In this document: one piece after another, positions 439-64,000 of the stretch
Position numbering within the stretch: the first letter of the stretch is position 1
How the letters are laid out: every line of letters begins with the position of its first letter
From: Cellulomonas chitinilytica
GTDB taxonomy: Bacteria; Actinomycetota; Actinomycetes; Actinomycetales; Cellulomonadaceae
Reading direction: 5' to 3'
Length of the DNA stretch: 64,000 nucleotides
Assembly (NCBI RefSeq): GCF_016862675.1
Contig: NZ_BONK01000004.1
Coordinates: 124,001-188,000 of the forward strand
Notes under the pieces: generated by a model
What the model was told of the DNA's origin: nothing
What the model saw: only the letters and a program-made list of their open reading frames with translations
Databases searched by the model: none
Position numbers and translations under genes: made by a program

Positions 439-1530
439 TCAGACCGTGCCGACGGCGACGCCGTCGACCTGGGGCGTGCCGGACGCGGTGAGGTCCGCGG
501 TCGTGTAGCCGCCGGTGTCGCGCAGCCGCTCGCCTGGTACGCCTGTGCCGGTGAGCGCCACGGACGCGAATCGGATCGCGCGGCCGACCTTGTCCCCGGT
601 GGACCCGAACGCGAGCTGCACCCGCAGCGCCGATCCTGCGGCGACCTCGGGCAGCACCAACCGGGTCCTCAGCACGTCGCCGACCTGTTCGGAGCTCGCC
701 TGCAGCAGTGCGACGTCGACCGGCTGGTCGGCGGGCGCGTCGGGACTGCCGCCGTCCGCGCCGACCTCCGCCTCCGACCGCGAGAGCGGGGCGGTGACGG
801 CGGCCGCGGTCGCGGTGCACGAGGACGCCAACGCGCTGTCGACCTCGACCGTGAGCGACGCGCCGGCCGGCACGGGCAGGGGGCCGACGCTCTCGACGCG
901 GACCGCTGAGGGGAGGCGGTAGCCGACCGCCGTCGCCGCCCACGCCGCGGTGACGAGCGCACCCCACGGGGCCACGCCGCTCGTGGCGGCGGGCGCGACC
1001 CACCGGTAGGCCCGGCGCTCCAGGCTTCCCTGCCGCCCCACGGCGATCTCCAGCGGGAGGGGCACGCCGATGTTCTCCGACGGGAACAGCTCTCGTGGCC
1101 GCAGCGGCAGCGACACGATCGTCGAATCGCGTGTCCGCGCCCGGCCGTCGGGCCGGGCGACCGAGAACCGCAGGACGCCGAGACCTGCGGCGTCGGGGCC
1201 GGTGACCTGCGGTGCGGCCGTCCAGACGGCGCCTGCCGCGGCCAGCACCACGTCGCCCGTCGCGTCCAGGAGCCGCGTGTCGAACGACACGGTCATCTCC
1301 AGGCGCGACGCTCCGGACGCGAAGCCCGCCAGCTCGAGCACGAGCGGAACCTCGAGCGTCGTCTCCTGCGCCCACGTCACGTCGAACGTCCGCAGCGGGA
1401 CGGACTGCAGCACCGTCAGGGCCAGCGGCCGGCGAGGCCCGCTGTCGCTCGCGTGCGCCGGCTCGGACAGTCCGACGACGACCGCTCCCGCGGCGATCGA
1501 CCCGAGCACGGTTCTCCGCGACACGTCCAT
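439..1530 (-). CDS. Secreted protein of unknown function with Tat-type signal
   Basis: 363 residues from the ATG at 1530, chosen because GGAGGGGAG precedes it. An in-frame start 14 codons upstream lacks such a site. The N-terminus carries a twin-arginine motif (SRRTVLG, residues 3-9) followed by an Ala/Val-rich hydrophobic stretch and a PAHA-like cleavage region near residue 27, so Tat export is likely. The rest is rich in Val, Thr and Ala without a catalytic motif I recognise. The alternation of short hydrophobic strands would suit beta-sandwich domains. The downstream DUF1906-type gene follows after 24 bp, which suggests a shared cell-wall or extracellular role. Function is unknown. Confidence 0.65.
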   Translation of the reverse strand: MDVSRRTVLGSIAAGAVVVGLSEPAHASDSGPRRPLALTVLQSVPLRTFDVTWAQETTLEVPLVLELAGFASGASRLEMTVSFDTRLLDATGDVVLAAAGAVWTAAPQVTGPDAAGLGVLRFSVARPDGRARTRDSTIVSLPLRPRELFPSENIGVPLPLEIAVGRQGSLERRAYRWVAPAATSGVAPWGALVTAAWAATAVGYRLPSAVRVESVGPLPVPAGASLTVEVDSALASSCTATAAAVTAPLSRSEAEVGADGGSPDAPADQPVDVALLQASSEQVGDVLRTRLVLPEVAAGSALRVQLAFGSTGDKVGRAIRFASVALTGTGVPGERLRDTGGYTTADLTASGTPQVDGVAVGTV

Positions 1531-1645
1531 GTGAGCTCCCCTCCGGCGCCACGGCGTGGCTTGGCGCGTCAAGGTAGCGATATGTCGGAGATGCGAGGTG
1601 CTCGTCCGCCATGTGGGCTAAAGGTGCGCAGGTCACAGCGTCACC

Positions 1646-1685
1646 GCCGGTCTGCCATGGGCGGATCCGCGCTCGGCAGACCGGC
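1646..1685. repeat. Inverted repeat, 11-bp arms, 18-bp spacer
   Basis: Arms 1646-1656 (GCCGGTCTGCC) and 1675-1685 are perfect reverse complements. The position between two divergent starts is compatible with an operator or an upstream terminator-like hairpin. Neither role can be shown from sequence alone. Confidence 0.55.
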
Positions 1686-1769
1686 GCGTCCACCGGCCGC
1701 ACGACGTCCCACCGAGAACTCCGTCAAACCGCCCACACGCTGGACTTTCGCCCCCTACCCTGTGCCGCA

Positions 1770-1795
1770 CACGGGCGCCGTCGACGGCGCCCGTG
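1770..1795. repeat. Perfect 26-bp palindrome in the leader of the peptidoglycan-binding gene
   Basis: Positions 1770-1782 and 1783-1795 are exact reverse complements with no spacer, centred on GTCGAC. It lies about 90 bp upstream of the ATG at 1883, probably within the 5' leader. It could be a protein-binding site or a strong leader hairpin. Confidence 0.6.
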
Positions 1796-1882
1796 CACGC
1801 GTCCCGGGCGCGCCTCGCACGTCGTGACCCGGGCACCTGACGGTCGGGCGACGGGCCGGCCGTCCCGACGAGAGGATGCAAG

Positions 1883-2446
1883 ATGCAGCTGCGCAGGCGC
1901 AGGTCGGTGGCCGGACGGATCGTCGCGACGATCACACTGATGGTCGCGATGGTCGCGGGGACGTCGGTGGCGGCGAACGCGTACAGCGCGTCGTACTCGG
2001 ACTTCCGTGGCCTGCCCACGCTGGGCACCGCGTACGTCAAGCAGGGCAACGTCGTCGGCCTGTGGCAGAACATCCTGTTCCGGGACGGCTACATCAACAA
2101 GTGCACGTCACTGTCCGCCGTCGCGATCGACGGCTACTTCGGCAGCGGGACCGCGGCGGCGACGAAGCGCTGGCAGGCCAACCACGGTCTCGCTGCGGAC
2201 GGCATCGTCGGCAAGGCATCGTGGGCGGCGGCGTCGACGCGCCTGCGTGGCCCGTCGTTCTACGAGTGGGACGCGTCCTCGGAGCTGTGGGGCTACGAGG
2301 GTGCCGGGGGCTGGTTCGACCTCGTGCGCCGGCCGGCCGACAGCCTGTCCCTCCCGCACGACTCGTGGACGTTCGTCTCCCTGTCGAACCCGAACGGCGG
2401 CGACAAGGAGATCATCTGGCCGAGCATCACCTTCAGGACCTGCTGA
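1883..2446 (+). CDS. Secreted peptidoglycan-binding domain protein
   Basis: 187 residues, starting at the ATG preceded by GAGAGGA. A Sec signal peptide is evident: basic RRRR near residues 4-7, a hydrophobic core, then an ANAYS cleavage area around residue 33. A PG_binding_1-type segment follows at about residues 50-105 (VVGLWQNIL, AIDGYFGSGTAAATKRWQ, HGLAADGIVGKASW), a fold that anchors proteins to peptidoglycan. The C-terminal third has no known domain and ends in Cys. Two other cysteines suggest one or more disulfides after export. The gene stands alone and ends at a bidirectional terminator shared with rplI. Confidence 0.85.
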   Translation: MQLRRRRSVAGRIVATITLMVAMVAGTSVAANAYSASYSDFRGLPTLGTAYVKQGNVVGLWQNILFRDGYINKCTSLSAVAIDGYFGSGTAAATKRWQANHGLAADGIVGKASWAAASTRLRGPSFYEWDASSELWGYEGAGGWFDLVRRPADSLSLPHDSWTFVSLSNPNGGDKEIIWPSITFRTC

Positions 2447-2542
2447 GACGCACGTCTGCACGGAGTGCTGCGCCGGCTTCTGAGGGGACCGGCCGGTGAC
2501 GGACCGGCATGCGACGGTCGTCATGACGACTGCTCCGTGACG

Positions 2543-2577
2543 CACGAAGGCCCCGCCCATCGGGCGGGGCCTTCGTG
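2543..2577. terminator. Bidirectional rho-independent-type terminator
   Basis: Perfect 16-bp stem, arms 2543-2558 and 2562-2577, with a 3-nt loop. It lies between the convergent peptidoglycan-binding gene and rplI, so it can serve both. It lacks a long T tract, as is common in high-GC Actinobacteria. Confidence 0.85.
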
Positions 2578-2596
2578 GTGGTGCAGCAGCCTGAGG

Positions 2597-3046
2597 TCAG
2601 GCGGCGACGACCTTGACGGTTACCGTCGCGGCGACGTCGGCGTGCAGGCGGACGGACACCTGGTACTCGCCCAGGGCCTTGATCGGCTGACCGATCTCGA
2701 CCTTGCGCTTGTCGATCTGCGGGGCGCCCGACGCCTTGACCGCCTCGGCGATCTCGGCGGTCGTGACGGCACCGAACAGGCGACCGGCGTCGCCGGCCTT
2801 GGCCTTCACGACGACCGGCTTCGACTGCAGCGAGTCGCGGATCGCCTTGGCGTCGTCGAGCGTCGCGATCTCACGGGCCTTGCGGGCCTTGCGGATCGCG
2901 GTGACGTCCTTCTCGGCACCCTTGGTCCACGGCGTGGCCAGGTTGCGCGGGATGAGGTAGTTCCGGGCGTACCCGTCCTTCACCTCGACGACGTCACCCG
3001 GGGCACCGAGGCCGGTGACCTCGTGGGTCAGGATGATCTTGCTCAT
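2597..3046 (-). CDS. rplI: 50S ribosomal protein L9
   Basis: 149 residues, full length for bacterial L9. It binds 23S rRNA and forms the elongated two-domain protein at the base of the L1 stalk. The N-terminal rRNA-binding domain is clear ([21 protein letters not shown], then [14 protein letters not shown] at residues 24-37). A long charged helix and the C-terminal domain follow. It is the last gene of rpsF-ssb-rpsR-rplI, 14 bp after rpsR, and its ATG is preceded by AGGAGAACC. Expression should follow ribosome synthesis from the promoter ahead of rpsF. Confidence 0.97.
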
Positions 3047-3060
3047 GAGGTTCTCCTTCC

Positions 3061-3297
3061 TCAGCGAGCCGACGACGAGTACGGCAGAAGAGCCATCTCG
3101 CGGGCGTTCTTGACGGCACGCGCGATCGCGCGCTGCTCCTGGACGGACACACCGGTCACCCGGCGAGCGCGGATCTTCCCGCGGTCGCTGATGAACTTGC
3201 GCAGCAGCGCGGTGTCCTTGTAGTCGACAGCGTCGATCTTCGCTGCCTTGAGGGGGTTCTGCTTCTTCTTCGGCTTACGGACCACGGCCTTGGCCAT
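3061..3297 (-). CDS. rpsR: 30S ribosomal protein S18
   Basis: 78 residues, normal length for S18. It sits on the platform of the small subunit and pairs with S6. The family core is visible: a Lys-rich N-terminus ([10 protein letters not shown]), then [25 protein letters not shown] and a C-terminal helix. No zinc-type cysteines are present, so it is a C- form of S18. It lies between ssb and rplI in the conserved operon. Many actinobacteria have a second S18 paralogue elsewhere; that cannot be judged here. Confidence 0.97.
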
Positions 3298-3374
3298 CGT
3301 GGTGCTCCTTGTCTGCTGGAGCCCCGGGCGTTGCCATGCCCGGGGATGGATGTCTGGAGTTGTCGATCAGACGA

Positions 3375-3881
3375 TCAGAACGGGGGCTCGTCGGAGTAGC
3401 CGCCGGCACCACCCGCGGGCGTCGCCCACGGGTCGTCCTGCTGGCCGCCACCGCCGCCGCCGCCACCGCCGCTGAAACCGCCACCGCCGCCACCGAAGCC
3501 GCCGCCACCACCCGAACGCTGGGTCCGGGTGACCTTCGCGGTGGCGTACCGCAGCGACGGGCCGACCTCGTCGACCTGCAGCTCGTACACGGTGCGCTTC
3601 TCGCCCTCGCGGGTCTCGTAGGAGCGCTGCACGAGCCGACCGGTCACGATGACGCGGGTGCCCTTGGTGAGGGACTCGGCGACGGACTCGGCCGCCTCCC
3701 GCCAGATCGAGCAGCGCAGGAACAGCGTGTCGCCGTCCTTCCACTCGTTGCTCTGACGGTCGAACGTGCGCGGGGTCGACGCCACGGTGAAGTTCGCCAC
3801 CGCCGCACCCGACGGGGTGAAGCGGAGCTCGGGGTCCCCCGTGAGGTTCCCGATCACCGTGATGGTGGTCTCACCAGCCAT
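3375..3881 (-). CDS. ssb: Single-stranded DNA-binding protein
   Basis: 168 residues. It coats single-stranded DNA during replication and repair as a tetramer. The OB fold covers roughly residues 1-110 ([62 protein letters not shown]). A Gly-rich flexible linker of GGGG runs follows at about 118-150. The acidic tip ends in SDEPPF, the peptide that recruits SSB-partner proteins. It lies between rpsF and rpsR, as in nearly all bacteria. The Gly-rich linker is encoded by a locally repetitive GCC/ACC tract on the plus strand. Confidence 0.97.
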
Positions 3882-3973
3882 GCCAGCTCCTCGTTCGTCC
3901 AGAGTTCGATCGGTGCGTGCGGATTGCTCGTCTGATCAAGTTCGTGCGCACGCTACGCGGACGCACTGACACG

Positions 3974-4267
3974 TCACGCGTCGGCGCGCAGCACCTTCGT
4001 CCGCAGGACGACCTCGTTGAGGCCGAGCTGACGGTCGAGCTCCTTGGCGGTCGCGGGCGTCGCGGTGAAGTCGACGACGGCGTAGATGCCCTCGGACTTC
4101 TTCTTGATGTCGTACGACAGACGACGGCGACCCCAGATGTCGACCTTGTCGACCGTGCCACCGTCGGTCTTGACGACCGACAGGTACTTGTCGAGCGAGG
4201 GAGCGACGGTGCGCTCCTCGATCTCGGGGTCGAGGATGATCATGATCTCGTACTGACGCAGGCTCAT
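3974..4267 (-). CDS. rpsF: 30S ribosomal protein S6
   Basis: 97 residues from the ATG at 4267. A GTG two codons upstream is in frame, but it falls directly next to the AGGAGG ribosome site, leaving no spacing, so the ATG is preferred. S6 binds 16S rRNA with S18 on the subunit platform. The family pattern is clear: [21 protein letters not shown] at the start, then [19 protein letters not shown] and a hydrophobic [15 protein letters not shown] strand-helix. It opens the rpsF-ssb-rpsR-rplI operon. The 210 bp upstream should hold the promoter; a TAGGCT hexamer (minus strand, 4414-4419) is a weak -10 candidate. Confidence 0.97.
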
Positions 4268-4477
4268 ACCCACCTCCTCTGGTCTCAGCGGTCACGGTCG
4301 TTCCGTGACAGGAGGGTTCTCGTGCGTCGCTGCTCGCCGGCCGGCGCGACGGCCGGACGACTCCCGGAGCACCGCGTCGATCTGCGACGGGCGTTCATGG
4401 GCACAGCAAGGGCCAAGCCTACCGGCCCGGCGTCGAGCCCCGAAATCGGGCTGTGGACGACGGGCCGGCGGCCAGGA

Positions 4478-6964
4478 TCAGGGGTTGTTGCCGTTCCCGT
4501 TCCCCGCCGCGGTGGGCGTCGGGCTCGGGTTGGGCGGTGGTTGCGTCGGCTGCGCCTTCGGACCGGTCGACACGACGATCGTGACCGCCGAGCCCCGGAG
4601 CACCTGGGTCCCCGCCTTCGGGTCGATCCGGATGACGCGTCCCGAGGTCACCGTGTCCGACGGCTCGGACGCGACGTTCGCCGAGAGCCCCAGCCCGACG
4701 AGCGTCGCCGTGGCGTCGGCCTCGAGCTTGCCGTCGAGGTTCGGCACCGCGACGTTCTGCGGCGCCTGCTCGGTCGCCTGCTCGGTCGGCTGCTCGGTCG
4801 GGGTCTCCGTGGGCGTCGCCGACGCCGTCGCGCCCTTGTTGACGTTCGCCCGCGGGGGGAACTCGACGACCTGCGCGTACTGCGGCAGCGTGAACGCCTG
4901 CTTCATGTAGCTCTGCCACAGGAACGCCGGCCACGTCCCGCCGGTGACCTCCTTGACCGTGGAGCCGCCCCGCGTCTTGCCGAACTTCTCGATCGAGTTC
5001 TGCGCCTGGCCGTCCTCGCCGACCTGCATCATCGAGACCGCCGTCGCGATGTCGGGCGTGAAGCCGACGAACCACGCCGACTTGTTCGAGGACGAGGTCC
5101 CGGTCTTGCCGGCGATCGGGCGGTCCAGCGGCTTGATCCAGTCCTTGCCGGACCCGGACTGCACGACCTGCTGCATCGCGTACGTCGCGTCGGCGATGAC
5201 GTCGGGCGAGAAGACCTGCTTGCCGGTCGTGTCCGCCTGCAACGCCGTGGTGCCGCCGGGGTTCTTCACGATCGCGACGATGTGCGGCGTGATGTGCGTG
5301 CCCTTGTTCGCGATCGTGGCGTACGCGCTCGCCATGTCGAGCGGGTGGACCGCGTCGGTCCCGAGCACGTTGGCCGCGTTGTCCCTGACCGGCGTGGTGA
5401 TGCCCGCCGCGGTCGCGGTCTTCGAGGTGGTCGCGGCACCGATCTGCAGGTTGAGCTGGGCGTACACGGTGTTCACCGAGTCGGCCGTCGCCTTGACGAG
5501 GTCGATCGTGCCTTCCTGCTCGCCGTCGAAGTTGCTGACCTTGCCGTCGTCGCTGTCCCAGCCCTTGAGGACCTGCGGGGAGTGCCCGTCGAACGTCGCC
5601 GACAGGGGCACGCCGTTCGAGAGCGCGCCGATGAGGGTGAACGGCTTGAACGTCGAGCCGGCCTGGATCTTGTCGGTGGCTGCGCGGTTGTACTGGTCGA
5701 TCGCGTACTGGTCTCCCAGCGGCACCGCGGGGTCCGGCGCACCCGGCTGGTTGTCGCCGCCGTACAGCGCGACGATCGCGCCGGTGTGCGGGTCGATCGA
5801 CGTGATCGAGTAGCGGGTCCGCAGGCTCGGCGTCGCCTCGCGCTGACCCTCGAGCGTGCCCGCCCGGAAACCGGCGGCGGTGTCGACCGCCATCTGCTGC
5901 AGCTCCGGCTGGATCGTCGTGGTGATGGTGTACCCGCCGCGGTTGAGCTGGTCGCGCGAGAGGCTCAGCGGCGGCTTGGCCAGCTCGTCGAGCACCATCT
6001 GCAGCAGGAAGCCGTTGGGGCCCGTCATGTTGTTGGGCTTCTCGTACGGGTACGTCTCCGGGAAGACCGCGGCCGCGCGGTCCGCCGCCGAGAGCCAGCC
6101 CTGCGTCACCATCGAGTCGAGCACGATGTCCCAGCGGGCCTTCGTCTTGTCCGGGTTCACCGCGGGGTCCCAGTTGTTGGGCGACGGGATGATGCCGGCG
6201 AGCATCGCGGCCTGGGAGACCGTCAGGTCCTTGGCGTCGACCTTGAAGTAGGCCTGCGCGGCCGCCTGGATGCCGTACGCGTCACGACCCCAGTAGATGG
6301 TGTTGAGGTAGCCCTCGAGGATCTCGTCCTTGGACTTGTCCCGCGTCACCTTGACGGCGAGGATCGCCTCCTTCGCCTTGCCGACGTAGTCCGTCGTCGT
6401 CTTGTCGACGAAGTACCGCTCGACGTACTGCTGGGTCAGCGTGGAGCCGCCCTGGTCGCGGGCGCCCGCCTCCTTGTGGAGGTTGTACCAGAGCGCGCGG
6501 GCCATGCCCTTGAGGTCGACGCCCTGGTTCTCGAAGAACGTCTTGTCCTCGGCCGCGGCGACCGACTGGCCCACGTACTTCGGCAGCGTGACGTAGTCGA
6601 CGAGCTGGCGGTTCTGGATCTGGAACGTGCCCATGACCGCGCCGGGGCTGCCGTCGGCCTTGTTCGCGTAGTAGACGGTCGACGTCTGGGCCTTCACGTC
6701 CGCGTCGGCGGAGTCCGGCACCGTGACGGACGCGTACGCGGCGGCGGCGGCACCGGCACCGAGGAAGAACATCCCGATGAACGCGCCGAGCGTGACCCGC
6801 CACGACGGCAGCCAACGGTGCAGGCCGTGGTAGCCGGAACGCGGGTAGTCGAAGAACCGTCGCTTGCGCCCCGCGGCTGCAGCAGGGGTCGTCGACGACG
6901 GACGGGTGCGCGTGCTGCGCCGGGACCGCGCGGGGGCTGCCCGCCTCGGGTTCGTGCCTGCCAA
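4478..6964 (-). CDS. Bifunctional class A penicillin-binding protein with PASTA domain
   Basis: 828 residues. It polymerises glycan strands and cross-links peptides during wall synthesis. A basic, Thr/Ala-rich cytoplasmic tail (1-53) is followed by one membrane segment (about 56-79). The GT51 transglycosylase domain shows EDKTFFENQG with catalytic Glu139 and GGSTLTQQ. The transpeptidase has the active-site Ser in STFK (residue 437), an SVN motif and KTGT (Lys at 620). A Thr/Glu/Pro linker leads to one PASTA domain (about 745-812), which in this class senses muropeptides or beta-lactams. The tail ends in a Pro/Gly/Asn-rich run. The protein resembles mycobacterial PonA1/PonA2-type enzymes. It is transcribed towards rpsF from its own promoter. 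Confidence 0.95.
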   Translation of the reverse strand: MAGTNPRRAAPARSRRSTRTRPSSTTPAAAAGRKRRFFDYPRSGYHGLHRWLPSWRVTLGAFIGMFFLGAGAAAAAYASVTVPDSADADVKAQTSTVYYANKADGSPGAVMGTFQIQNRQLVDYVTLPKYVGQSVAAAEDKTFFENQGVDLKGMARALWYNLHKEAGARDQGGSTLTQQYVERYFVDKTTTDYVGKAKEAILAVKVTRDKSKDEILEGYLNTIYWGRDAYGIQAAAQAYFKVDAKDLTVSQAAMLAGIIPSPNNWDPAVNPDKTKARWDIVLDSMVTQGWLSAADRAAAVFPETYPYEKPNNMTGPNGFLLQMVLDELAKPPLSLSRDQLNRGGYTITTTIQPELQQMAVDTAAGFRAGTLEGQREATPSLRTRYSITSIDPHTGAIVALYGGDNQPGAPDPAVPLGDQYAIDQYNRAATDKIQAGSTFKPFTLIGALSNGVPLSATFDGHSPQVLKGWDSDDGKVSNFDGEQEGTIDLVKATADSVNTVYAQLNLQIGAATTSKTATAAGITTPVRDNAANVLGTDAVHPLDMASAYATIANKGTHITPHIVAIVKNPGGTTALQADTTGKQVFSPDVIADATYAMQQVVQSGSGKDWIKPLDRPIAGKTGTSSSNKSAWFVGFTPDIATAVSMMQVGEDGQAQNSIEKFGKTRGGSTVKEVTGGTWPAFLWQSYMKQAFTLPQYAQVVEFPPRANVNKGATASATPTETPTEQPTEQATEQAPQNVAVPNLDGKLEADATATLVGLGLSANVASEPSDTVTSGRVIRIDPKAGTQVLRGSAVTIVVSTGPKAQPTQPPPNPSPTPTAAGNGNGNNP

Positions 6965-57314: not shown

Positions 57315-57812
57315 ATGCCTGAGTACCTCATCTACTTCAACCAGCAGTGGGTGGGCGACCACTCCGAGGAATGGTTCCGCGGGCGCGTGCAGCCCTCCAT
57401 GGCGGTCGTGGAGGAGATGAAGGCCGCCGGCGTGTACGTGTTCGCCGGGGGCCTCGAGGAGGAGGACGGACCGGTCTACAGCGCCGACCCGACGGGCGTC
57501 ACCACCCTCGTCACGGACGGCCCCTACGTCGAGACCAAGGAGTTCCTCGGCGGCTTCGCGCTCGTCGACGTCGCCGACGACGAGGAGGCGAAGCGGTGGG
57601 CGGCCAAGGTCGCCGCCGGCTGCGGCTGGCCCCATGAGGTCCGTCGCTTCAAGCCGCGACCCCGGGTCGTCGCCGCAGGCGTCACGCCAGGCGTCACGGC
57701 AGGTGCCACCGCAGGCGTCACTGCAGGCGTCACCGGGGGCACCGCCGACGCGGCCGCGGATCCGGCCAGCGCCGGGCTGCCGCGCGAGCGCGTCCGGCGA
57801 CCGCTCCTCTAG
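57315..57812 (+). CDS. YCII domain protein with repeat tail
   Basis: 165 residues, ATG after GAGGAGAAG. Residues 1-115 are a YCII-related domain (EYLIYFNQQWVGDHSEEWF, AGVYVFAGGLEEEDG, TDGPYVETKEFLGGFALVDV). Such proteins are often partnered with ECF sigma factors or act as small oxidative enzymes; the activity is unknown. The last 45 residues are not part of the family. They carry GVTPGVTAGATAGVTAGVTGGT from a 12-bp repeat (about 57675-57735) and may come from slippage. The stop overlaps the convergent GNAT stop by three bases. Confidence 0.85.
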   Translation: MPEYLIYFNQQWVGDHSEEWFRGRVQPSMAVVEEMKAAGVYVFAGGLEEEDGPVYSADPTGVTTLVTDGPYVETKEFLGGFALVDVADDEEAKRWAAKVAAGCGWPHEVRRFKPRPRVVAAGVTPGVTAGATAGVTAGVTGGTADAAADPASAGLPRERVRRPLL

Positions 57813-58465
57813 GCGACGCCGAGGAGCTCGGCCACGGCCTCCGCCCCGGTGATGGTGACCGGTGGCCGCATCGTCGCGGGTCGGGCGCGCCACTGCTCGA
57901 CGGACATCGAGAACGACAGCGACTCGGCCACCTCACCCTCACGGGCCAGCCGGCGCCGACCCGACGCCAGGTAGCCGAGCTTGCGGGTCACGGCGAGCGA
58001 CGCGGCGTTGTCGGTGAACGCCCCCGTGGTCGCCTCCTGCGCGCCGAGCCCGTCGAACAGCAGGTGCAGCATCGCGAGCCGCATCCGGGTACCGATGCCT
58101 GCCCCGTGGAACCGCAGGCCCAGCCACGAGCCGGTCTCGGCGGTGCGGGTCACCGGGTACTTCGTCGCGACGGCGCCCTGGACGCCGACCAGCTCCCCGC
58201 CGACGAGCACGGCGAGCTCGAGCCTCCAGTCGTCCGGGTCGACGTGCGCCCGTGTCGCCCACTGGTAGCGCAGCACGCTGCGGGCCACCTCGTCGGGGGT
58301 GCCTCGTGTCCACGGGAACGCGAACGGCATCCGGTCCTCGGCGTGCACCCCGGAGCGTGCGAGGTCGGCGAGTCGGAGCAGGAGGTCGTCGTCGAGGAAC
58401 CGGAGCTCCAGGTCGTCGTGCTGCACACGCAGGCCGGCGGGCGGCCAGAGGTCGGCGAGGTCCAC
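57809..58465 (-). CDS. GNAT family N-acetyltransferase
   Basis: 218 residues from a GTG at 58465. The GNAT fold is recognisable: DDLELRFLDDDLLLRLADLA at the start, LELAVLVGGELVGVQGAVA, the acetyl-CoA-binding GLRFHGAGIGTRMRLAMLHLLF, and GAFTDNAASLAVTRKLGYLASG. The MPFAFPWTRGTPDE region is seen in acetyltransferases of this subgroup. The substrate is unknown. It is convergent with the YCII gene and overlaps it by a few bases. Confidence 0.9.
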   Translation of the reverse strand: MDLADLWPPAGLRVQHDDLELRFLDDDLLLRLADLARSGVHAEDRMPFAFPWTRGTPDEVARSVLRYQWATRAHVDPDDWRLELAVLVGGELVGVQGAVATKYPVTRTAETGSWLGLRFHGAGIGTRMRLAMLHLLFDGLGAQEATTGAFTDNAASLAVTRKLGYLASGRRRLAREGEVAESLSFSMSVEQWRARPATMRPPVTITGAEAVAELLGVA

Positions 58466-58574: not shown

Positions 58575-58968
58575 TCAGTCGGCCACCGGGATCTGCACGC
58601 GACGCAGCCTGCCGGACTCCACGTACACCCCGCGACCCACCGGGAACTCGGCGCGGGCCATCCGCGGGAAGGGCGTCCGGAACAGCGCGTCGCCGTCCAG
58701 GTGGTCGGGCTGCAGGACGAGCCCGCGCCGGCCGTTGCGGACGTCCGCGACGAGCGGCCACGACGAGCCCCACGTGCTGGTCTCGGCCTCGGCGAGCAGC
58801 AGGTGACCGTTGCGCTTGGCGGCCCCCCGCCGTCGTCGCGCCCGCCGGGAGGCCGTCGACGCGCGCGACGGCTTCCGCGATGTCGCCGACGGTCGCGCCG
58901 GCGTCGGTCGTGACGACGACGTCGGTGGACACGCCACCGGGTCGCCGCAGTGTGAGTCTCGTGCGCAC
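58575..58968 (-). pseudogene. Remnant of an FtsK/SpoIIIE (EccC-like) ATPase gene
   Basis: The GTG at 58968 after GGGAGG begins a frame (RTRLTLRRPGGVSTDVVVTT, GATVGDIAEAVARVDGLPAG) that matches the N-terminus of large actinobacterial FtsK/SpoIIIE-domain proteins. After about 45 codons, near 58825, the sequence joins another frame (AAKRNGHLLLAEAE, then RRGLVLQPDHLDGDALFRTPFPR and FPVGRGVYVESGRLRRVQI) that matches the C-terminal end of the same family, stopping at 58575. The ATPase middle, normally several hundred residues or more, is gone and the frame is shifted. Type VII secretion neighbours are absent. Confidence 0.7.
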
Positions 58969-59091
58969 GTGACCTCCCAGATCCCGGGCGAGGCTAGCCG
59001 TGCCGCAGGTGGTCGGTGGCCCTGGCGTGGGGACGCCTGTGGATGTCCACGCGTCCCGCCGCCGGGCCTCCGGCGTGCTGCGGCGTCGGCA

Positions 59092-60225
59092 TCACCAGCG
59101 GTTGTCGTGGATCGCCTCGGCCAGCGCCACGTCGTCCCCGGTGAACCCGTAGGACGCGAGCGACGCCGGCATCCCCAGGTACGTCGCGGCGTACGCGTCG
59201 GCGAGCGCCTCGTACCGCGAGGTCGGGAACATCGTCCCGGTGAGCCGCTCGATCTGCTTGTGCGCCGCCTCGTGCAGCGCGACGGCCCGGACGTACGACA
59301 CGAGCTTGCTCCGCGACCCCTGGTACGCGCCCGGGTCACCGCCGCCGAACGAGAGCTGGATCGTCGAGCTGCCCGAGCTGCTGCAGCCGCGGATGGAGAA
59401 CGAGCCGGCCGACACGGAGCCGGACTGCCCGCACGCGGTCGTCGCGACCCAGGAGACCGACAGCCCGTAGCTCCCGGCGGCACCGGCCGCCGCGGCGCGG
59501 ACGTCGTCCCACGCGGACGACGCGGGTGCGGCGGCAGCGCCGTCACCGCCGCCGCTGCTGCGCGCCGGTGCGGCGGCCCGCGCGGGGGCCGGCTGCTTCG
59601 CGGACCCGTGCTTCGTCGTGGCCCGACGCGCCGCGGCCGCCTCGGCCGCCGCCTGCTCGGCCGCGGCCTGCTCCGCCGCCGCCTGAGCGGCCGCCGCAGC
59701 CGCAGCGGCAGCCGCCGCCTCGGCCGCCGCGCGGGCCTGCACCGACGCGGCGACCTCCACGGCCGCCGCCTCGGCCTGCACGACGAGCGGCCGCGCGCCG
59801 AGCAGCGATCCCGCGTCGACCACGGCCCGCGCGGACGTGACGGCAGCGGTCGCCGTGTCGACCAGGCTCTCCCTGCCCGCCTCGACCGGGGCGCCGACGA
59901 CCGCGGCCTGGACGGCGTCGAGCCGCCCGCGCAGCGCGGTCAGCTCGGCGGCGAGCTGCGAGCGGACGGCGGCGCTGGTGGCGACGGCGGCACGATGCTG
60001 CTGCCGGTCGTTCCAGTCGGCGTCGGCCGCGCTCACCTTCTGGAGCACCCGGACCCGCTCGACGAGCGCGGTGTGCTTCGCCTGCGCGACGTGGATCGCG
60101 TTCCACTGGGCGGCGGTCGGACCTCCGGTGAGCAGCACGCCGCCGAGCGCGAGGACGCTCGACGCGACGGCCGCCCCTCTGCGGAGCAGCCGGACTGGTC
60201 GTGAGGTGACGACGGGACGGTGCAC
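59092..60225 (-). CDS. Secreted coiled-coil protein with HEAAH metallopeptidase-like domain
   Basis: 377 residues from the GTG at 60225, six bases after CAGGGGG; a GTG 12 codons upstream has a poorer site. A signal peptide (basic RPVRLLRRG, then VASSVLALGGVLLTGG) leads to a helical region (about 45-190) with an Ala/Gln/Glu heptad-like run. A Lys/Pro linker follows. The C-terminal domain (about 240-377) has two cysteines (TTACGQ, IRGCSS) and HEAAHKQIERL, a zinc-peptidase HExxH (His318, Glu319, His322), with a further EALAD (Glu339, Asp343) that could give the third ligand. It may cut cell-wall or extracellular proteins. Family not recognised. Confidence 0.75.
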   Translation of the reverse strand: MHRPVVTSRPVRLLRRGAAVASSVLALGGVLLTGGPTAAQWNAIHVAQAKHTALVERVRVLQKVSAADADWNDRQQHRAAVATSAAVRSQLAAELTALRGRLDAVQAAVVGAPVEAGRESLVDTATAAVTSARAVVDAGSLLGARPLVVQAEAAAVEVAASVQARAAAEAAAAAAAAAAAQAAAEQAAAEQAAAEAAAARRATTKHGSAKQPAPARAAAPARSSGGGDGAAAAPASSAWDDVRAAAAGAAGSYGLSVSWVATTACGQSGSVSAGSFSIRGCSSSGSSTIQLSFGGGDPGAYQGSRSKLVSYVRAVALHEAAHKQIERLTGTMFPTSRYEALADAYAATYLGMPASLASYGFTGDDVALAEAIHDNRW

Positions 60226-60390
60226 GGTGGGCCCCCTGAGGTGAGTCGACGCTGGCTGCACGCTTCGATCGACGACGGGGGGTCGGTGAGGAGGCGGTGG
60301 TGAGGATCGCCCCGGTTCGGCCCGCTGGGTTCGACCCGATCGGCCTATCCAGGTGCCGGGTGTCGGTGCCGCGGTCTACGTTGAACCGCT

Positions 60391-63032: not shown

Positions 63033-64000
63033 TCAGCCGACCATGCAGGGTGCGCCGTTCACCGTGAACGCGGTCGGCGCGGTGTTCGTGCCGCCGTGCG
63101 ACCCGTTGAACCCGATGTCGGTGCTCGCCCCCGGCGCGAGCACCGCGTTCCACGGCTGACCCGTGGCGGTGACGGCCGAGCCGGTCTGCGACCACGTGGC
63201 GCTCCAGCCCTGCGTCACCTTCTGGCCGGTCGGGAACGTGAAGCCGAGCGTCCAGGTCAGCGGGGACGTGGCGGTGTTGGTGAGCCTGATCCGGGCGGTG
63301 AACCCGGTGCTCCAGCCGTTCGCCGAGTAGGCCACCGTGCAGCCGGGGCCCGGGATGACGTCGTCGAGCGTGAACGCCCGGAGCACGTCGGAGGCGACCC
63401 CGACGTCGCCGGCGGAGCCGACGGCCCGGACCTGGAACGCGTACTCGCGCATGGGCCACAGGCCGGTGACGGTGTACCGGGCCACCGCGCTCGTGCCGAC
63501 GACGGCGATCGCGTCGCCGGAGATCTGCTCGACCTGGTAGGTGACGTCGCCGGGCACGTCGTCCCACACGAGCGTGAGCGTCGTGCCGGTCGCACTCGTC
63601 TGGTGGAGGCCGGTGACCTTCCCGGGCTTGCCCGGCAGCGTCCTGAACGTCCCCGCCGGGCTCGCGGCGGACCGGTTGCCGGTGCGGTCCCGCGCGCGGA
63701 CGACGAACGAGTACGACGCGCCGGCGGCGAGTCCCGTCGCCTCGTACGTGGTCGTCGACGACGACCCGACGAACGCCTCGGTGTCGCCCTGCAGGACGTA
63801 GACGTCGTAGCCGGCGACGCCGAAGGGCGCCATGGTCCCGCCGGGGTCCGTCGACGCCGTCCAGGACAGGGTGGCACCGCTCGCCGTGACGGCGGTCGCG
63901 ACCGGCGCCCCGGGGGCGGAGGGCGGGGTCGTGTCGCGCACGATCTCGCGGACCGTCGACGCGTCGACGGCGTCGGACAGCGGCCCGAGCACCCCGCCCG
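63033..64000 (-). CDS. Secreted protein with two Fn3 domains and a C-terminal CBM2 (5' end outside window)
   Basis: Only the C-terminal 320 or so residues are seen; the frame stays open to the right edge. Two fibronectin type III domains (PPSAPGAPVATAVTASGATLSW and KPGKVTGLHQTSATGTTLTLVW starts) are followed by a CBM2 cellulose-binding domain. The CBM2 has its two end cysteines (GCTVAYSANGWSTGF ... NGAPCMVG) and the surface Trp set (NGWSTGF, GWSATW, GQPWNAVLAPG). This layout is typical of Cellulomonas glycoside hydrolases. The catalytic domain should lie upstream, outside the window. There is no clear terminator between it and the ABC operon. Confidence 0.92.
   Translation of the reverse strand, partial: GGVLGPLSDAVDASTVREIVRDTTPPSAPGAPVATAVTASGATLSWTASTDPGGTMAPFGVAGYDVYVLQGDTEAFVGSSSTTTYEATGLAAGASYSFVVRARDRTGNRSAASPAGTFRTLPGKPGKVTGLHQTSATGTTLTLVWDDVPGDVTYQVEQISGDAIAVVGTSAVARYTVTGLWPMREYAFQVRAVGSAGDVGVASDVLRAFTLDDVIPGPGCTVAYSANGWSTGFTARIRLTNTATSPLTWTLGFTFPTGQKVTQGWSATWSQTGSAVTATGQPWNAVLAPGASTDIGFNGSHGGTNTAPTAFTVNGAPCMVG

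Follow-up and report, generated by a model that had tools for sequence, protein, structure and literature searches.

The gene at 59092-60225 of the 64,000-nucleotide stretch of Cellulomonas chitinilytica DNA analysed here (the window) probably encodes a small zinc-dependent protein-cutting enzyme that is exported on a helical arm. The reading favoured by sequence comparison and structure modelling, and held with reasonable but not high confidence, is an exported, tethered zinc metallopeptidase of the gluzincin type with a minimal core. Most likely, it represents a family that is new and uncurated but of a known kind, whose members differ in their surface tethers, and not a new enzyme class. 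The open reading frame (377 aa, GTG start) is present where the initial annotation had placed it; that it lies on the minus strand is a point absent from this annotation. An alternative GTG is located at 60261. Since AGGGGG precedes the GTG at 60225 and no such sequence precedes the one at 60261, the start chosen initially is the better one. The features of the gene and its product are, in the order of the protein:

60232..60237, minus strand: likely ribosome-binding sequence AGGGGG, six bases to the GTG
59092..60225, minus strand: whole gene, GTG start at 60225, stop at 59092-59094
60121..60177, minus strand: hydrophobic segment (residues 17-35) that likely serves as signal peptide or anchor
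59800..60114, minus strand: helices 38-67, 75-111 and 114-142, modelled with low to medium confidence
59614..59793, minus strand: long helix 145-204, largely Ala-rich; degenerate tandem repeats of 9-30 bases encode the Ala-rich part
59515..59613, minus strand: Gly/Ala/Ser/Pro-rich linker, residues 205-237, devoid of secondary structure in the model
59095..59514, minus strand: zincin (gluzincin-like) domain, residues 238-377, assigned by alignment and model
59431..59433, minus strand: Cys265, predicted disulfide partner of Cys281
59383..59385, minus strand: Cys281, predicted disulfide partner of Cys265
59260..59274, minus strand: HEAAH, residues 318-322, two predicted zinc-binding His and the predicted catalytic Glu319
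59209..59211, minus strand: Glu339 on the next helix, predicted third zinc ligand
59149..59151, minus strand: Tyr359, predicted active-site Tyr

The last 140 residues form a compact domain in the AlphaFold2 model (mean pLDDT 95.3, pTM 0.88). HExxH is located on helix 305-329 and Glu339 on helix 338-349, which are consecutive. The initial annotation had proposed a minimal gluzincin-like site composed of HEAAH and a downstream EALAD; its positions are correct, including the numbering of Glu319 and the beginning of EALAD at Glu339. According to the proposed mechanism, His318, His322 and Glu339 would hold a zinc ion, Glu319 would activate a water molecule and Tyr359 may steady the transition state. 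HExxH by itself is, by estimate, not rare in a large proteome. However, His318, Glu319, His322 and Glu339 are kept in all nine other aligned sequences found by single-sequence searches, and therefore the motif is more than chance. One further match (L003, E 0.136) has two stops and was left out of the alignment. Besides these four residues, A250, G280, D343, A344, Y345, Y359, G360 and A369 are invariant in the resulting ten-sequence alignment.

Single-sequence search found the domain in 8 of 200 genomes of the family. Profile searches yielded at least four of 394 genomes of the class with an early alignment (A2), at least 33 of 396 of the order with A3 and at least ten of 396 of the phylum with a 39-domain profile (A4), five of the last being weak matches outside the order; all four counts include the own genome. 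The profile counts are lower bounds, with no more than ten candidates scored in each genome. The order-level search yielded 38 match rows. Eight of these rows carried no locus identifier: a paralogue (L002), the second gene of genome G901 (inside L024) and six others that were left out (E 3.6e-7 to 9.1e-4). The five weak matches outside the order (E 2.9e-4 to 6.6e-4) were left out as well, as was G293, which belongs to the order (E 9.4e-4). In G901 (L024, L075), two neighbouring family genes are arranged in tandem. The C. chitinilytica genome contains a second, 51% identical copy of the domain (G000:C3:45094-45507; L002, L069). The protein carrying it appears to be shorter and to have a signal-like sequence, but not the helical arm.

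A loss of the His or Glu residues in homologues was looked for. Across the 39 domains, H318, H322 and E339 are kept in 39/39, E319 in 38/39 and Tyr359 in all 36 rows that reach its column (three are gapped); these counts refer to sequences and not to independent events, as some members are closely related (L041 and L042 are nearly identical), and beyond the first ten relatives the invariance of HExxH is partly circular because the profile included this motif, while the Glu and Tyr columns are less affected, yet not free of bias. The predicted minimal site is thus conserved in the family. Only H318, H322, E339 and Y359 are unchanged in all rows that reach their columns; the invariance of Tyr359 had not been noticed initially. 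H322 and E339 are separated by 16-21 residues. Residue 345 is Tyr or Trp, and residue 343 divides the family into three sub-groups with D, T or N; a Ser occupies this position in L045. In L045, HGLAH replaces HExxH (Glu to Gly), and the open frame lacks the hydrophobic segment upstream. As both the catalytic Glu and this segment are missing, L045 is probably a decaying copy. In the window gene, the zincin domain is under purifying selection: over 137 codons, it differs from the orthologous L011 of a Cellulomonas MAG (best segment 93% identical) by 32 synonymous and 12 non-synonymous changes, yielding dS ~0.37, dN ~0.04 and dN/dS ~0.11.

Single-sequence searches with the window protein yielded no significant match in Pfam, NCBIfam, PADLOC or the PDB sequences; the whole protein matched 0 Pfam families. 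Candidates at chance level were set aside: CbtB (0.13) and DUF6237 (0.62) for the domain alone in Pfam, and, far under the cut-off, ribonuclease E for the whole protein (E 0.22) and one match at 0.043 for the domain in NCBIfam. Four PDB chains found with the family profile (E ~0.02) were all ribosomal proteins and were taken as chance, too. The window domain was unmatched in plasmid and phage collections and in PHROGs. Among the 39 members, phrog_87, a metallo-protease family, matched two (best E 7.3e-4), and two further PHROGs families each matched a single member. Ten full-length members were also scanned, and all stayed below the cut-offs of the peptidase models. At E 0.05, the 39 domains produced weak matches to SprT-like (15, best 9.4e-05), Zn_peptidase_2 (PF04298; 6), M57 (3), YgjP-like (2, best 1.5e-05), M90 (1) and eCIS_core (1, E 0.007), the last of which we take to be PF13699, the PVC-metallopeptidase. 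A published description of the family was not found in the open-licence PMC literature searched.

Profile-profile comparisons, controlled by 60 column-shuffled versions per target, connect the family with known peptidases. The comparison alignments contained 10 of 27 match rows for M78, 11 of 11 for SprT-like and 10 of 17 for PF04228. M78 (ImmA/IrrE, PF06114) scored 91.9% over 79 columns including the Glu helix (best shuffle 16.4%), PF04228 (YpfJ) 86.6% over 85 columns (best shuffle 3.3%) and SprT-like 94.3% over 53 columns that end after HExxH (best shuffle 2.1%). Judged by these alignments, the domain is a relative of M78, PF04228 and SprT-like within the zincins and passes none of the models tested. 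The initial annotation had considered it as an arrangement without a known family and perhaps a new class of exported peptidase. The family is indeed absent from the protein-family databases searched; its catalytic core, by contrast, appears to be of a well-known type. Since the profiles align with known zincin peptidases, 'new class' has to be lowered to an uncurated family within the zincins.

PF04228 offers parallels in the order of parts. As in its members, a region with Cys is followed by HExxH and then by a helix, which in the window protein carries E-x-x-A-D-x-x-A. Glu aligns on Glu with the Cys regions in register, and in our own reading of the alignment the region of Cys265 and Cys281 lies opposite the invariant Cys106 and Cys118 of PF04228. 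HExxH followed by E-x-x-A-D, a PF04228 feature, occurs in the window protein, whereas Asp343 varies across the wider family. In contrast, the PF04228 model comprises 290 positions compared to 140 residues here, the local alignment does not extend to the invariant segments at the C-terminus of PF04228, and the model recognised 0 of 39 members at E 0.05. The PF04228 member KPN_02809 is described as an active zinc protease, and mutation of its HExxH abolishes activity (PMC3269727).

With M78, the family shares the strand region, the HExxH helix and the Glu helix, Glu again on Glu, and the M78-type structures PprI and IrrE are present among the fold matches given below. M78 regulators are intracellular, whereas the family studied here looks exported; at E 0.05, the PF06114 model found 0 of 39 members. 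In the case of SprT-like, Wss1 and Spartan (PF10263, WLM), the strands and HExxH align. SprT enzymes use a His as third zinc ligand, in contrast to the family, where the 39-row alignment contains no conserved His after H322 and an invariant Glu339 instead. Five of ten full-length members matched the PF10263 model with 13.1 to 17.3 bits, all below the curated 25.6; the window protein itself was unmatched. The minimal core may resemble that of minigluzincins (jannalysin, selecase) and mini-zincins (Acel_2062). These are soluble single-domain proteins, whereas the domain here is probably part of a tethered protein. The mini-zincin and the mini-Glu-zincin have been described (PMC3890501), and Wss1 has been described as minigluzincin-like (PMC4559962). 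PVC-metallopeptidase, a zincin-like domain of three strands and three helices, also carries HExxH and a Glu on the next helix (PMC3482391). Its signature is HExxHxxQ-E (PMC3482391), while in the window protein (HEAAHKQIE) the third residue behind the motif is not Gln.

Fold comparison gave modest scores. Foldseek found nothing at E 0.001 or better with the domain model. Among the best 50 of 241 chains compared by VIA-align, rows 1-13 are zincins by name or recall, with a best Z of 5.5; scores below 8 can reflect nothing more than a widespread arrangement and do not prove relationship. The top row is selecase (Z 5.5, 87 aligned residues, 3.0 A, 8% identity), followed by anthrax lethal factor (5.4), ArdC (5.2), PprI (4.8), 6mdw, presumably a Spartan-type structure (4.8), jannalysin (4.6), IrrE (4.5), HtpX (4.3) and Wss1 (4.1). 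Two entries close to the bottom are non-zincins, both DXR reductoisomerase (3zhy, Z 2.9; 3zi0, Z 2.7). Among these best 50 of 241, no YpfJ-type title occurs, and this absence is uninformative. Taken together, the modest Z values and the motifs fit a zincin.

A zincin fold may bind metal and still not cut proteins. That the domain is an HExxH oxygenase or another non-proteolytic zincin is unlikely, and yet it is the alternative that survives best. An HExxH domain described as alpha-ketoglutarate-dependent oxygenase (8s5f) occupies fold row 33 (Z 3.7) and thereby scores below many peptidases in the same list. An HExxH oxygenase needs Fe(II) and 2-oxoglutarate, and with this need the export signs considered below fit poorly. 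More generally, some HExxH proteins are reported to lack protease activity (PMC3269727), which is a point in favour of a non-peptidase.

Export of the proposed metallopeptidase had been assumed initially, and the family agrees with it. An upstream hydrophobic stretch (19 residues, Kyte-Doolittle mean at least 1.6) is present in 34 of 39 members compared to 47 of 180 neighbour proteins outside the family, a control that excludes 20 family proteins among 200 neighbours (66/200 with them included). The five members short of this line are L011 and one L024 frame, both cut by the DNA end, L045, L026 (1.47) and L037 (1.51). The window protein itself lies just above it (1.62). A possible cleavage site, TAAQ, follows its hydrophobic segment. 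Before HExxH, the aligned stretch contains either no or two Cys in 39 of 39 members. Cys329 and a Cys in the tail are both present in 34 members, both absent in four, among them the window protein, and in one member (L004) Cys329 is unpaired. Upstream hydrophobic segment and paired cysteines point to export, and Cys265 and Cys281 would form a disulfide bond.

The tethers vary. Some members have an SH3-like part, others DUF2510 and a membrane helix or a membrane helix and a helical stalk, while a signal-like sequence with an Ala-rich helical arm is found in the window protein and two relatives. According to our own reading, these two, L026 and L027, have the layout of the window protein: a signal-like sequence, a helical part, an Ala-rich stretch and a linker. 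In Pfam, the SH3 domains are sub-threshold in L004 and L009, and DUF2510 is above the cut-off in L036. The 'coiled-coil stalk' described initially is borne out in part: the model has three helices (within residues 38-142), one long Ala-rich helix and a linker. Confidence for the stalk is limited, with block means of 61-79 for residues 41-180 and 91-92 only at 181-200. A stalk query in 121 genomes of the family yielded, besides the own gene, only weak matches (best E 0.0042), none of them convincing. The arm may project the domain away from the membrane or into the wall, and peptides or envelope proteins would be cut there.

The gene is surrounded in the window by the following genes:

57315-57812, plus strand: YCII protein
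57809-58465, minus strand: acetyltransferase
58575-58971, minus strand: FHA-FtsK remnant, junction 58824-58833
60391 onwards, plus strand: ABC transporter, on the other side of the gene
63033-63992, minus strand: CBM2/fn3 protein

The protein encoded at 63033-63992 combines two stretches of fibronectin type III with a cellulose-binding CBM2 domain; it is probably the C-terminal portion of a carbohydrate-active enzyme that continues beyond the window edge. Across 22 loci, 279 predicted proteins from mechanical gene calls were clustered. Among the 25 largest clusters, the first two are the zincin proteins themselves, followed by ABC-transporter ATPases (4 loci) and a regulator (4 loci), and no neighbour family occurs in more than four of 22 loci. 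A run of housekeeping genes is common to three related loci.

An exported effector that acts on other bacteria and is delivered by the arm would also fit a small enzyme domain at the C-terminus, a variable part ahead of it and a sporadic spread (the 8 of 200 family genomes). Zincin domains such as PVC-metallopeptidase and Tox-MPTase1-5 are known as toxin tips, some of them in Actinobacteria (PMC3482391); the Tox-MPTase domains are described as zincin-like with HExxH. Such an effector is improbable. Tox-MPTase domains are typically joined to RHS repeats (PMC3482391), and none were seen here. A conserved immunity gene was not seen among the neighbour families, PADLOC yielded no match in three members, and the membrane-anchored relatives suggest a resident envelope protein.

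The activity of the family as a peptidase is a prediction, and the catalytic Glu is lost in L045. A catalytically dead zincin, used at the tip of the arm for binding or as a structural part, is nevertheless hard to reconcile with the retention of this Glu in all but one of the 39 domains and of the three predicted ligands in every one. Furthermore, L045 looks decayed. A dead domain is accordingly given little credence.

The last alternative concerns the adjacent gene. In L011, an intact FHA-FtsK/SpoIIIE (EccC/EssC-like) gene (~666-5063) follows the peptidase gene on the same strand. Of this gene, the window lacks 4,011 bases (L011 804-4814), with ten bases (58824-58833) in their place; the two ends that are left do not share a reading frame. 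The window copy appears to be an internally deleted remnant, which could reflect either a natural deletion or an assembly collapse. The genome keeps other FtsK-type genes (three long matches, one shorter), which qualifies the argument from this loss. That the zincin is a partner of this type VII secretion ATPase is highly improbable and the association was set aside, as FHA-FtsK lies beside the gene in only two of 22 loci at E 1e-3 (L011 and, as a remnant, the window), both orthologous, and is deleted in the window while the peptidase gene is intact.

The exported, tethered zinc metallopeptidase thus remains the preferred reading. Whether it stands for a whole actinobacterial envelope peptidase family for which no model exists, built from one minimal gluzincin module with an invariant Tyr359 and interchangeable tethers, is in our estimate evenly balanced. 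No new kind of chemistry would be added. If this holds true, the gluzincin module would be a general enzyme of this order for trimming surface proteins or wall peptides, a small catalytic unit combined with several kinds of surface tether. Unnamed actinobacterial surface proteins would then form a single enzyme family open to testing, with five named residues as targets for mutation.
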